Shown here in pieces: positions 2,896-27,010 of a stretch of DNA of 64,000 nt (the first letter of the stretch is position 1; each line of letters begins with the position of its first letter). Under the pieces are notes generated by a model that saw nothing but the letters and a program-made list of their open reading frames with translations, was not told the origin of the DNA and did not search any database. The position numbers were made by a program, and so were the translations under genes. Origin of the DNA: Calothrix sp. HK-06 (GTDB lineage: Bacteria > Cyanobacteriota > Cyanobacteriia > Cyanobacteriales > Nostocaceae); NCBI RefSeq assembly GCF_001904745.1, contig NZ_MRCD01000009.1, positions 62,001 through 126,000 on the forward strand, in the 5' to 3' direction.

Positions 2896-4242
2896 ATGTC
2901 TAAACCTGTAATAAAAGTTGACAATTTAAGTAAAAAATACGTTATTCAACACCAACAAGATAGTTATAAAACACTTCGCGGCGCCATTACAGATGCGGCA
3001 AAATCTATTGCTAGCTTAGTCAACCCAAATGTCAAAAAAGAAACGCAATCAGAACGGGAAGAATTTTGGGCACTTGAAAATGTATCGTTTGAAATTAATC
3101 AGGGAGATACAATTGGTGTTATTGGACGTAACGGTGCAGGAAAATCAACACTATTAAAAATATTAAGTCGAATTACTGAACCGACTAGCGGTTCTATTCG
3201 TATTAAAGGACGTGTTGCCAGCTTACTCGAAGTTGGGACAGGTTTTCACCCAGAATTAACAGGTCGAGAAAATATTTATCTCAATGGTGCAATTTTGGGA
3301 ATGAGCAGAGCTGAAATTCAGCGTAAGTTTGATGAAATTGTCGCATTTGCTGAAATTGAAAAGTTTCTCGATACCCCTGTTAAAAGATATTCTTCTGGTA
3401 TGTATGTACGTCTTGCTTTTGCAGTCGCAGCACATTTGGAACCAGAAATTTTAATAGTCGATGAAGTCTTAGCAGTGGGAGATGCTCAGTTTCAGAAAAA
3501 ATGTTTAGGCAAAATGGGTGATGTTGCTACCAAGGAGGGACGAACTGTACTGTTTGTTAGTCATAATATGGCAGCGGTGAGCAAACTTTGTAATAAAGGT
3601 TTGTTCATGAAACAAGGACGTATGCTTTATCAAGGAGACTGCGCTAAAGCAATACAAATGTATATGTCATCAGATTCTGTCAGCAGTCAAGAAAATAGTT
3701 TGGACTTTTCACGGCGCCGAGTTAAGCCAAAAGATGTAAAAATTGTGGATGCTTGGTTGTTGAGAAATGGCGAAAGAACTGAAGAGTTTTTGTTTGGAGA
3801 CCGAGACAGCGAACTTGTGATAGTTGTTGAGATATCAAAACAAGTGACTTTTAGTGTTGAGTTATTACTGCGTGATGCCCAAGATTTACCAATTGCATTT
3901 TCACCTAGTGGACTTAGCAAAGATTGGGAAATTGAAGGAGAAGCAGGTAGTCGAGTGACAATTCGGTGTAAGTTACCAGAAATGAACTTGGCACAAGGAA
4001 AGTATTCTATTGATTTAATCTTAGCAATTCCGGCAACCAAGCTTTTAGATTACGTTGAATCGGGACTCTTTTTTATAATTAGTAATAGCGCTATTGGTAA
4101 TCGCAATTGGAGTTTTGTACAATCTACTGGTCAAGGTTGTTTACTTTGGGATGTCAAATATGATTTAGAAGAATACAGTATCAATGATACTAATCATGTA
4201 AATCAATTTTCTTTTGAGGCTTTGCAAAATTCTAAACTTTAA
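2896..4242 (+). CDS. ABC polysaccharide exporter ATPase with carbohydrate-binding C-terminal domain (Wzt-like)
   Basis: The ATPase domain covers about residues 1-260: Walker A GRNGAGKST (77-85), ABC signature YSSGM (165-169), Walker B ILIVDE (185-190) and the H-loop histidine in VSHN (about 223). About residues 275-448 form an extra beta-rich domain like the Wzt C-terminal domain, which in characterised systems recognises the finished polysaccharide end. The protein therefore powers the permease at 2035 and may select the substrate. It lies 21 bases after the permease gene. The C-terminal domain is the least conserved part, so specificity cannot be inferred. Confidence 0.88.
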   Translation: MSKPVIKVDNLSKKYVIQHQQDSYKTLRGAITDAAKSIASLVNPNVKKETQSEREEFWALENVSFEINQGDTIGVIGRNGAGKSTLLKILSRITEPTSGSIRIKGRVASLLEVGTGFHPELTGRENIYLNGAILGMSRAEIQRKFDEIVAFAEIEKFLDTPVKRYSSGMYVRLAFAVAAHLEPEILIVDEVLAVGDAQFQKKCLGKMGDVATKEGRTVLFVSHNMAAVSKLCNKGLFMKQGRMLYQGDCAKAIQMYMSSDSVSSQENSLDFSRRRVKPKDVKIVDAWLLRNGERTEEFLFGDRDSELVIVVEISKQVTFSVELLLRDAQDLPIAFSPSGLSKDWEIEGEAGSRVTIRCKLPEMNLAQGKYSIDLILAIPATKLLDYVESGLFFIISNSAIGNRNWSFVQSTGQGCLLWDVKYDLEEYSINDTNHVNQFSFEALQNSKL

Positions 4243-24536: not shown

Positions 24537-25349
24537 ATGGATTCTTCCCACCTTAACTTTACAAATCAAAATTTGCAAAATCGCTCGTTTAAAGGACTCA
24601 ATTTGAATGGCGCCAACTTTAATGGTGCGGATATTAGAGGATGTAATTTTAGTAACGCACAGTTAAAAGATGCTAATTTGACAGGAGCTAAGATTGGTCA
24701 ATCGCCAAGAGTTTTTGTTTTTGTGCTAACGATTGCGTGTGTAGTAGCTATTATTACGTTTGAAGCAGTCAGTGAAATGTCGTTTGGTATACTTGGACGC
24801 ACTCCTGAAGAGTCAGCGTGGTCTTATAGTGTGGCTTTGTTTGTTAGTTTGGGGATAGCAGGGTTGTGTGCTAGTTTTAACGGTATTACTAAGCAAAATT
24901 CTATTTTCCAACGTTTGACTACAATTATATCCGGCGCAGCTTCTGGAGCTTTACTTGGATTTTACTATGGTGGTAGTACTCAGGATAATAATCCTCAAAT
25001 TGCTGTGATATCGGCAGTTGTAGCGTCGTTGGTTATGGCATTTGTATGCTTTAAGTTTAAAACTGGGTTTATTTCCGTTGTGGTTGCAGTAGCTGGTTGT
25101 ATTGCAAGTTATGGGTTTGCTTTTTTACTGAGTAGTTTGGCGTTTGCCTTTCTAGGTATTCCAAATATTTTATTAGGAAGTATTTTGATATGTCTGACTT
25201 TAATTGCTACTGTATTAACTATGCTTTGTTTACAACAGGCATTTAAAGAAATTACTAGTGTTGGTGTTACATCATTTAAAGGTGCCGATTTATCTAATGC
25301 TAAATTTGATGGGTCGGTTTGCAACGGATACAACGGATGTAACGGATGA
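24537..25349 (+). CDS. Pentapeptide-repeat membrane protein, C-terminus altered by a repeat
   Basis: The 270-residue protein has an N-terminal run of pentapeptide A(D/N)Lxx units (LNLNGANFNGADIRG, NAQLKDANLTGAK; about residues 1-52), then about five hydrophobic segments (about 57-235), then a restart of pentapeptides (FKGADLSNAKFDG). The frame then runs into three 9-base tandem repeats, giving CNGYNGCNG and a stop. Related proteins usually carry many more C-terminal pentapeptides, so truncation by the repeat is likely. Function is unknown; pentapeptide proteins form right-handed beta helices. It precedes the RNA leader at about 25400. Confidence 0.75.
   Translation: MDSSHLNFTNQNLQNRSFKGLNLNGANFNGADIRGCNFSNAQLKDANLTGAKIGQSPRVFVFVLTIACVVAIITFEAVSEMSFGILGRTPEESAWSYSVALFVSLGIAGLCASFNGITKQNSIFQRLTTIISGAASGALLGFYYGGSTQDNNPQIAVISAVVASLVMAFVCFKFKTGFISVVVAVAGCIASYGFAFLLSSLAFAFLGIPNILLGSILICLTLIATVLTMLCLQQAFKEITSVGVTSFKGADLSNAKFDGSVCNGYNGCNG
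25323..25349. repeat. 9-base tandem repeat (three AACGGATNN units)
   Basis: Three exact-length units starting AACGGAT at 25323, 25332 and 25341. They form the 3' end of the pentapeptide gene, including its stop codon, and lie just upstream of the structured RNA. Confidence 0.85.
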
Positions 25350-25394
25350 GTTATTTGTCACGTTGCAATGTTTTTAGATTTTATGTAGTATGGT

Positions 25395-25635
25395 TGTAAC
25401 TCATGGAAGAGGAAAGACCCCTTGGAGAGGTTTACTCGAACGGGAAATGTTAATTAAGGTGATTAGCATTGGCGGTTAGTAGGGTAAAACGTATGTGCAA
25501 CGATACTGCAACAAAGTGTCATGTTCATGGTGTGCTGACTTGAAGTTAACAGTGCGCGGAATGTGGAAGCTGGATGGTACCGCCGTTAATACGGTTCCAG
25601 CGAGTAAAACTTAACCCATACAAGGGTTTTTTGTC
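25395..25635 (+). ncRNA. Structured RNA leader, HEARO/omega-RNA-like or T-box-like
   Basis: About 240 bases directly upstream of the aspartyl-tRNA synthetase are GC-richer than other gaps and highly structured. At 25569-25601, GCTGGA and TCCAGC pair, then an unpaired TGGTACC, then GCCGT and ACGGT around TAAT: this is the exact shape of a T-box antiterminator. A second hairpin AACCC/GGGTT with six T (25613-25632) ends four bases before the ATG and covers the AAGGG ribosome site. No convincing T-box stem I or specifier was found. Blocks such as GGTTTACTCGAACGGGAAATG and GGAATGTGGAAGCTGGATGG resemble, from memory, HEARO/omega RNAs found next to IscB-type genes in cyanobacteria. No IscB gene is present. 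Confidence 0.5.
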
Positions 25636-26931
25636 ATGGTACTTTGCTCAAAAACATTTATTGCAACGCTAGTCGCATCGTTAATTGAAGAAGTTGTGAT
25701 TTGTGGATGGATACTCCATCTGCGAGAACTTGCTCGTACTACATTTATTGTCGTCAAGGACTGTAGTGGTCAAGTGCAATGTGTTGTAGCTTCTGAGTTG
25801 GTGCGAGAATTGAAGCTCAAACTCGATGAACCTGTGGAAATAAGAGGTAAAATCAAGCCCGATAAACGAGCTAAACTTGGTTTTGAGGTAGAAGTTATTG
25901 AGATTAATGTTCTTAATCAAGTATCTGTACTCCCTTTTAATTCCAGTTCAGATATTTCTGATATTGGGATCGAAACTATCTTGGCTTACCGTCCTTTGTC
26001 GCTGCGTCATAGTGAGATAGGCGATATTTTTCGGATACAAGCTGCTATTTTGCAATACTTTCGCCAATTCTTAGGCGCCAGATATTTTACTGAAATAGTC
26101 ACATCGAAGATAGTATCTAGTGGAACTGAGGGTGGAACTAATTTGTTTGAAATCAAATATTTTGAACGTCTAGCATACCTTGCTCAAAGTCCGCAGTTTT
26201 ACAAAGAGTACGGTGTTTCAGGTTTAGAGCGAGTGTTTGAGAGTGGTTACGTTTATCGTGCAGAACCTCACGCAAGTAGTAGACATTTGACTGAATATTA
26301 CTCTTTAGATTTGGAAATGGGGTTTATTAACAGTGCTGAAGAAGTAATTGAGTTAGAACGAGAGCTACTAACGTTTATTTTTGAGCAGTTGAACCAAAAC
26401 TTCGCAGACCAACTTAAACATTACAGAGCGAAATTACTTCCCTCAATGTTGAATGTACCCACTTGGGAATTTACAGAATGTTTAAAACTACTCAATCATC
26501 ACTTTGGTCGTAACGACCTTATTGACGACCTAGACCCAGAAGCAGAACGTCAACTTTGTCAGTTAGCAGAAGCAGAAACAGGAATACCAGCGCTGTTTGT
26601 AATTGGTTTTCCTTTATCTGCAAGACCTTTTTATACACACCCACGCGGTAATGAAGGCGCCTCACAAAGTTTTGACTTATTATTTGAAGGCATTGAAATT
26701 ACAACAGGTGGGCAAAGATTGCACAAACGCGAAGATTTAAAACAATCCTTAACAAATCGTAATTTTAACCCCGCCTCATTTGAAAATCATTTACAAATGT
26801 TTGAACTAGGAATGCCACCACATGGAGGACTAGCAATTGGTTTAGAACGTTTAACTTCCCGAATTTTAAATTTACCCAACGTCCGACAAGCATCGCTTTA
26901 CCCACGCGACAGGTACCGAATCACGCCATAA
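25636..26931 (+). CDS. aspS: Aspartyl-tRNA synthetase, compact archaeal-type (AspS2)
   Basis: The 431-residue class II synthetase is much shorter than the roughly 600-residue bacterial AspRS, lacking the GAD insertion. Visible features are an OB-fold anticodon-binding domain (about 1-100; GWILHLRELARTTFIVVKD), RPLSLRH, SSGTEGGTNLFEIKYFERLA, AQSPQFYKE, motif 2 VYRAEPHASSRHLTEYYSLD and motif 3 GLAIGLERLTSRIL. It charges tRNA with aspartate; such enzymes may be non-discriminating and also charge tRNA-Asn. The ATG at 25636 is used because the ribosome-site-like AAGGG lies in the preceding hairpin. It is likely a second, horizontally acquired AspRS, preceded by the structured RNA above. Confidence 0.88.
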   Translation: MVLCSKTFIATLVASLIEEVVICGWILHLRELARTTFIVVKDCSGQVQCVVASELVRELKLKLDEPVEIRGKIKPDKRAKLGFEVEVIEINVLNQVSVLPFNSSSDISDIGIETILAYRPLSLRHSEIGDIFRIQAAILQYFRQFLGARYFTEIVTSKIVSSGTEGGTNLFEIKYFERLAYLAQSPQFYKEYGVSGLERVFESGYVYRAEPHASSRHLTEYYSLDLEMGFINSAEEVIELERELLTFIFEQLNQNFADQLKHYRAKLLPSMLNVPTWEFTECLKLLNHHFGRNDLIDDLDPEAERQLCQLAEAETGIPALFVIGFPLSARPFYTHPRGNEGASQSFDLLFEGIEITTGGQRLHKREDLKQSLTNRNFNPASFENHLQMFELGMPPHGGLAIGLERLTSRILNLPNVRQASLYPRDRYRITP

Positions 26932-26936
26932 AGTAG

Positions 26937-26995
26937 GGTGCGTGACGCTACCAACAACCTTCAAACGAAGCAGCTATCTAGTAGCGTCACGCACC
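26937..26995. repeat. Inverted repeat GGTGCGTGACGCTAC between convergent genes
   Basis: Arms of 15 bases at 26937-26951 and 26981-26995 pair perfectly around a 29-base loop. A shorter relative, GGTGCGTGACGCACC, lies at 54003-54017. It is placed between the convergent synthetase and muramidase-like genes and could end transcription from both sides. Confidence 0.75.
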
Positions 26996-27010
26996 TTACA
27001 AGTTGTTCAG

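Follow-up and report, generated by a model that had tools for sequence, protein, structure and literature searches.

The window, that is, the whole 64,000-nucleotide stretch of Calothrix sp. HK-06 DNA analyzed here (contig NZ_MRCD01000009.1, positions 62,001 to 126,000), carries on its plus strand a gene for an archaeal-type aspartyl-tRNA synthetase (AspRS) of 431 amino acids, aspS2 (25636 to 26931). An archaeal-type AspRS gene had been proposed at this place by the initial annotation, and this was borne out by a match to NF003483 at 471.1 bits (cut-off, 353) and by the best match in the PDB, aspartyl-tRNA synthetase 2 (1n9w/3kfu). The aspS2 product also matched three other places in its own genome, lying in open frames 475, 595, and 509 amino acids long; from their lengths and the part matched, these were taken for AsnRS, bacterial AspRS, and LysRS, respectively. 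By aspS2, the nearest named relatives were Calothrix and Dulcicalothrix. The residues that are said to tell tRNA-Asp use apart from tRNA-Asn use in this type of AspRS gave no uniform answer, and no evidential weight is attached to them. A tRNA-Asp was found with one pattern, applied to this genome only; it has the anticodon GUC and ends in CCCCG, with G as the discriminator. Directly after aspS2 (26935 to 27000), an inverted repeat was seen by eye that contains GGGTGCGTGACGCTA, a 15-mer with 16 copies in the genome, 8 per strand (reversed control, 0), and hence likely a small dispersed repeat. In two Calothrix relatives (L013, 4294 to 4374; L016, 4303 to 4361), repeat arrays of the TGAGTGC type form inverted repeats just 3' of aspS2; these arrays showed as miRNA-family matches, surely by chance.

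The DNA in front of aspS2 (25398 to 25632, plus strand) encodes what is very probably a T-box riboswitch whose stem I is ultrashort and which governs this second, archaeal-type AspRS gene. When 901 nt (25000 to 25900) were compared with 4227 Rfam families, the T-box family RF00230 was the sole significant match and covered 25395 to 25602 over its full length (model positions 1 to 219; E value = 2.9e-8; 44 bits), while two further matches (E values of 0.97 and 8.5) resembled chance. In a search of the entire genome with RF00230 (9.99 Mb), the leader was found at an E value of 7.6e-8 and the runner-up at 1.08. The 44 bits lie below the gathering cut-off of 93 bits, which is a scoring cut-off and no anatomical feature. 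The leader folded with a z-score of -2.21, and 5 of 200 shuffles folded equally well. At the level of sequence, the class of the leader, its parts, its specifier, its conservation, and the position of a -10-like box are all apparent, and each anatomical T-box feature that was tested for could be recognized.

Stem I (25398 to 25429) had been reported as not found, because it is ultrashort. It comprises 32 nt in total, namely, a C-stem (CUC/GAG, 25400 to 25402 with 25427 to 25429), a K-turn recognized from sequence rather than geometry (GA at 25406 to 25407 and GA at 25425 to 25426), a 4-bp upper helix (GAGG/CCUU, 25409 to 25412 with 25420 to 25423), and a 7-nt apical loop, AAAGACC (25413 to 25419). 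The K-turn and both helices fall within the RF00230 match, and double changes were found in both helices. The loop holds the specifier GAC (Asp, 25416 to 25418), which fits both the AspRS gene and the GUC anticodon of the genome's own tRNA-Asp. Another GAC, at 25537, was rejected as a specifier, as it sits in a variable insert of stem III. Stem II (25431 to 25488) is closed by a lower helix (25431 to 25437 with 25482 to 25488) with both-side changes in all 7 pairs, next to which GAA (25438 to 25440) and AGUA (25478 to 25481) resemble an S-turn by sequence likeness. Stem IIA/B (25490 to 25510) combines a hairpin (25490 to 25492 with 25500 to 25502) and a pseudoknot (25496 to 25499 with 25507 to 25510), with double changes in 1 of 3 and 2 of 4 pairs, respectively, every lettered cell being paired. 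There follow an RRRNG motif read by eye (25514 to 25518), stem III (25519 to 25526 with 25559 to 25566; both-side changes in 6 of 8 pairs), and AA (25567 to 25568). The antiterminator or antisequestrator (25569 to 25601) also lies within the RF00230 match. Its helix-bulge-helix is as first described, with GCUGGA (25569 to 25574) pairing with UCCAGC (25596 to 25601), GCCGU (25582 to 25586) pairing with ACGGU (25591 to 25595), and UGGUACC (25575 to 25581) left unpaired; the UGGU of this bulge (25575 to 25578) is the T-box sequence and can meet G73 of the genome's own tRNA-Asp as a G-U pair. The expression platform (25613 to 25632), which emerged from a scan for terminator-like sites, consists of a 5-bp hairpin over AAGGG followed by UUUU. 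This second hairpin (AACCC-AUACAA-GGGUU, 25613 to 25628) was also confirmed, with the correction that AAGGG (25622 to 25626) ends 9 bases, and not four, before the ATG at 25636.

To place the leader among its relatives, 84,980 species genomes were scanned with six exact peptide patterns, an approach that reaches close relatives only. Ten aspS2 loci were obtained (five Calothrix-type, Brasilonema, Oscillatoria CS-180, Pleurocapsales LEGE 06147, an Oligoflexia metagenome-assembled genome [MAG], and a Chlorobiota MAG), and the upstream stretches of every one of these and of L038 to L043 were read. L040 repeats L017, and L033 to L037, whose contig positions answer to L013 to L016 and L020, were left out. 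With the window included, 16 distinct leaders share the ultrashort stem I, all upstream of the same archaeal-type AspRS gene; 14 of the hosts are cyanobacterial, one is a Bdellovibrionota MAG, and one is the Chlorobiota MAG. When 11 sequences were aligned freely, 98.8% of 424 cells paired, and both-side changes occurred in 15 of 40 pairs (shuffles, 3.1; slid controls, 2 to 5). Across all 16 sequences, in an alignment fitted to a covariance model and hence biased toward it, 98.2% of 567 cells paired, with both-side changes in 20 of 36 pairs (shuffles, 6.2; slid controls, 2 to 4); the shuffles keep relatedness in, and six of the sequences are near-copies. A covariance model built from 11 leaders (R1) matched all 16, including the five that had not been used in building it (L038, L039, L041, L042, and L043; 165.8 to 173.5 bits; E values of at most 1.1e-47).

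Among the leaders, GAC is invariant in all 16; the apical loop has 7 nt and reads ANAGACC throughout, with C as the base after the specifier in every case. The upper helix of stem I reads GACG/CGUC in L041 and L043 and AAGG/CCUU in L042, and the C-stem reads CCC/GGG in L022, with GAC kept each time. The K-turn GA/GA was invariant in 11 leaders, the S-turn-like AGUA is replaced by AUUA in L021, and the pseudoknot occurs, as read by eye, as UGCA/UGCA, UGCC/GGCA, UGCG/CGCA, and CGCA/UGUG. The antiterminator is present in 16 of 16 leaders, with UGGU in the bulge of 11 and UGGC in that of 5, and the 7-nt bulge UGGNACC between the two helices is intact in 15. The exception is L019 (Pleurocapsales LEGE 06147; leader, 2743 to 2947), in which the bulge lacks two bases. 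The L019 aspS2 gene, which begins at 3001, carries an in-frame TAG, and the gene appears to be decaying along with its switch. In sum, the T-box reading is supported by the full-length RF00230 match, the fitting Asp specifier, the K-turn, the IIA/B pseudoknot, the stem III motif, the antiterminator, and covariation.

The ten relatives' leaders given to Rfam's RF00230 model came from twelve loci (L011 repeats L019, L012 has no leader, and L038 to L043 were left out), and, with an E-value limit of 0.5 or 1, only three of the ten (L016, L020, and L021) were reported. Together with the window's, 11 distinct leaders were put to the model, none of which reached the cut-off (best, L021 at 64.3 bits), and annotation by gathering score would therefore miss such leaders. 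An RF00230 search of 291 genomes drawn from the order, at E values of up to 0.01 with strict filters, matched the window's own genome alone; the same search matched 5 of 14 control genomes. Within the window's family, 12 of 217 genomes had an aspS2 homologue (E values of up to 1e-80), as did 3 of the 291 genomes from the order, one of which is L012, a 41% homologue. Of 386 genomes drawn from the cyanobacteria, R1 matched in 1 (strict filters), and the leader thus appears to be rare. The stem I string also occurs in two viral contigs (L023 and L024), where about 500 nt of each were inspected by eye and no further T-box parts were seen; it was taken as chance.

The start of the transcript bears on whether stem I is truly short. 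All 16 leaders have the motif TANNNT exactly 6 nt before the AACYC of stem I (TAGTAT in the window, 25386 to 25391), a count read by eye with no chance level behind it, a script having chosen another hexamer in six Calothrix-type rows. A mechanical sigma-70 scan of 25200 to 25720 gave no promoter. The fixed position of TANNNT 6 nt upstream in all leaders means that no longer stem I seems to be hidden, and if TANNNT is the -10 element, the RNA would start at the base of stem I, the distal part of which would be truly absent.

By analogy with known T-boxes, the leader most likely reads uncharged tRNA-Asp with the codon displayed by its very small hairpin, raising expression of the gene. The specifier GAC would read the anticodon of tRNA-Asp, and the K-turn would fold stem I against the S-turn of stem II, an arrangement that would take the place of the elbow-binding end present in a long stem I. 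The GCCA end of uncharged tRNA, being free, would then pair with UGGU in the bulge and stabilize the antiterminator, so that the gene goes on, while charged tRNA-Asp would be unable to dock. On the same analogy, the aspS2 enzyme would be raised when the main AspRS leaves tRNA-Asp uncharged, and AspRS2 may be a backup, for example, under inhibition of the main AspRS.

How binding is turned into output may differ among members. Translational control, in which the hairpin would hide AAGGG until tRNA binding opens it, has about an even chance of being the mode of the window. Six relatives (L017, L038, L039, L041, L042, and L043) have an antiterminator whose 3' arm is able to pair with the stretch immediately ahead of the start codon (10 to 13 pairs as drawn); 8, 0, 22, 85, 0, and 1 of 200 shuffles, respectively, did as well, so that for four of the six (L017, L038, L042, and L043) no more than 8 of 200 shuffles were as good. 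Moreover, forcing the antiterminator opened the start region in all six. The window behaves differently, in that its start-region pairing is at chance level (179 of 200 shuffles as good), as are those of L018, L019, L021, and L022 (69 to 145 of 200), among which only L021 opens, by 0.02, and the other three close when the antiterminator is forced. Under the same forcing, the start region of the six Calothrix-type leaders opened slightly in 4 and closed slightly in 2 (window, 0.50 versus 0.45), and over all ten leaders beyond the six relatives named above, it opened in 5 and closed in 5. Sequestrator pairing in the window, L013, L015, and L016 was no better than chance; in L014 and L020, 24 and 14 of 200 shuffles were as good, but the partner stretch lies inside the coding region.

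Transcriptional attenuation, with 25613 to 25632 as an intrinsic terminator blocked by the antiterminator, is somewhat less probable but deserves serious consideration. The window hairpin is terminator-like, with its UUUU, and is the one plus-strand site among 3 terminator-like sites in 25200 to 25720 (shuffles, 0.4). However, this 5-bp hairpin and the antiterminator form together in the minimum-energy fold, with no overlap between them. L019 has a strong terminator-like hairpin (-12.1 kcal/mol) that takes CAGC of the antiterminator into its 5' arm, and a like hairpin appears in the fold of L018, yet it is absent from the scan list. Terminator candidates were listed in just 5 of 12 leaders (window, L019, L039, L041, and L042) by a scan that had no shuffle control; those of L039 and L042 have poor U tails, and that of L041 reuses no antiterminator part. 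Judged by these folding models, output looks translational in the six relatives and terminator-like in L019 (in L018 by fold only), whereas neither the translational nor the termination logic is clean, as modeled, for the window or for the five leaders closest to it.

That unclear platform in the Calothrix group could also mean a relic T-box that no longer switches, and L019, with its damaged bulge and in-frame stop, demonstrates that decay does occur. A relic is nevertheless improbable, given the double changes counted in each helix, the invariant GAC and UGG, the fixed spacing of the -10-like box, and the AspRS proteins of the five closest relatives, which stay 93 to 96% identical to that of the window. 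Still less probable is autoregulation, in which AspRS itself would bind the leader as a tRNA mimic. There is precedent in E. coli thrS, and 7 nt is also the length of an anticodon loop, but the loop carries the codon GAC rather than the anticodon GUC, and the UGGN bulge and the IIA/B pseudoknot are T-box parts.

The other class suggested by the initial annotation, a HEARO/omega RNA captured as a leader without its IscB nuclease, can be dismissed as extremely unlikely: although this structured RNA (RF02033) and RRXRR genes have matches in the same genome, RF02033 matched nothing in 25000 to 25900 at E values of up to 10, and the conserved blocks are T-box parts. The three HEARO matches elsewhere scored 71, 50.1, and 31.3 bits (E values of 9.8e-14, 1.2e-8, and 4.4e-4), all under the gathering score of 83, and are located at C24:28359-28609, C68:14253-15013, and C34:3513-4297; RRXRR genes adjoin those on C68 and C34. 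The C24 contig, with the best match, has no RRXRR match, and that element is possibly a solo HEARO. A tandem repeat that had been proposed as the guide end (25320 to 25348) is the 3' end of an upstream pentapeptide-repeat-like ORF (24537 to 25349) and was not found in about 500 nt upstream of L016 to L019, L021, and L022; for both reasons, it is not considered part of the RNA.

With the T-box reading thus preferred, its history can be approached through the AspRS proteins. In a tree of 26 AspRS-family rows, L019 being a 241-residue piece, the 16 AspRS with the leader formed one side of a branch with a support of 100/100; relations outside this clade were mostly weakly supported, and several rows were long. 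A cyanobacterium of the same order (L012, genome G200) has an AspRS of 41% identity that lies outside the clade and has no T-box match, and this suggests more than one arrival of archaeal-type AspRS genes. R1 gave no match at E values of up to 0.1 in eight more distant homologues (L012 and L025 to L031). Among 7 tested of the 11 plasmid records with a homologue, three carry T-boxes. The aspS T-boxes of Paraclostridium and Acetoanaerobium score above the gathering score (118.3 and 107.4 bits), that of Nonomuraea (L027) is under the cut-off at 63.5 bits, and all three have a long stem I with GAC at the equivalent place; RF00230 had no match in L012, nor in L028 to L031 at E values of up to 0.1. 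Since the T-boxes that precede these more distant AspRS genes are long and carry GAC in the equivalent position, an independent truncation to a class III-like form is suggested, and the simplest reading of the sequences is that a long Asp leader was truncated to the ultrashort form. We tentatively extend this to a separate T-box class, which would have arisen through shortening of a long-stem-I Asp leader, separately from the ileS class III of actinobacteria, and would then have moved with the AspRS gene between Cyanobacteria, Bdellovibrionota, and Chlorobiota and come to drive termination in some hosts; this full scenario is possible rather than probable. If true, termination would occur with an ultrashort stem I, contrary to the view that transcriptional T-boxes generally need a long, elbow-binding stem I. 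The tetranucleotide composition of both MAG contigs resembled that of two other contigs of their own bins (Oligoflexia MAG, r = 0.95 and 0.95, with a G+C content of 0.345 versus 0.384 to 0.388; Chlorobiota MAG, r = 0.95 and 0.97, with 0.611 versus 0.567 to 0.625), and this likeness makes stray cyanobacterial contigs less likely. The leader DNA had no match in plasmids. AspRS occurred in nine phage records, all at less than 60% identity, and two uncultured phage records (LR745206.1 and LR756502.1; 635 and 642 kb) encode an AspRS-like protein 37% identical to the aspS2 product.

A study cited in PMC4206432 deals, by its title, with T-box control in relation to the redundant pathways for asparagine and asparaginyl-tRNA. 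No report of a cyanobacterial T-box was found in the open-licence literature, as judged by titles and the starts of abstracts. Table 3 of one survey has no T-box in 13 cyanobacterial genomes (PMC2494555), and in its account of 255 genomes, 14 of them cyanobacterial, a later survey limits T-boxes to Firmicutes, Actinobacteria, Chloroflexi, and Thermus/Deinococcus while noting a Geobacter T-box from earlier work (PMC3766115). The leader of aspS2 would thus place T-box control in Cyanobacteria, where these two surveys, in the parts cited, found none. The closest architectural likeness is to class III, which is described in the relevant portions of PMC10482949 as mostly translational, with the Nocardia farcinica ileS leader as the example, a short stem I without the IDTM, an apical loop of 5 or 6 nt that holds the specifier, and a required stem II. 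The aspS2 leader shares the short stem I without the elbow-binding motif (with a -10-like box lying 6 nt upstream, there is no space for it), the apical-loop specifier, the K-turn, stem II with an S-turn, the IIA/B pseudoknot, stem III, and the antisequestrator (PMC10482949 and PMC7583486, as far as these descriptions go). It differs in serving Asp and aspS2 rather than Ile and ileS, in its loop of 7 rather than 5 or 6 nt, in having C after the specifier where known T-boxes, as PMC7583486 describes them, have a purine, in its occurrence in Cyanobacteria and in Bdellovibrionota and Chlorobiota MAGs, and in the terminator-like platform of some members. It appears to belong to class III by architecture only, with a loop outside the class III size. 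Gene kinship points toward the long-stem-I aspS T-boxes (Clostridia, L025 and L026; Nonomuraea, L027); these share the downstream gene family, the place of GAC, and the domain order but have a long stem I with a distal part. Set beside class III, the aspS2 leader would be a second case in which the specifier sits in an apical loop, here for a different amino acid and gene and with a loop of different size. The smallest unit that reads tRNA could then be compared between what may be two origins, and the members of the aspS2 group may pair one reader with two output modes.
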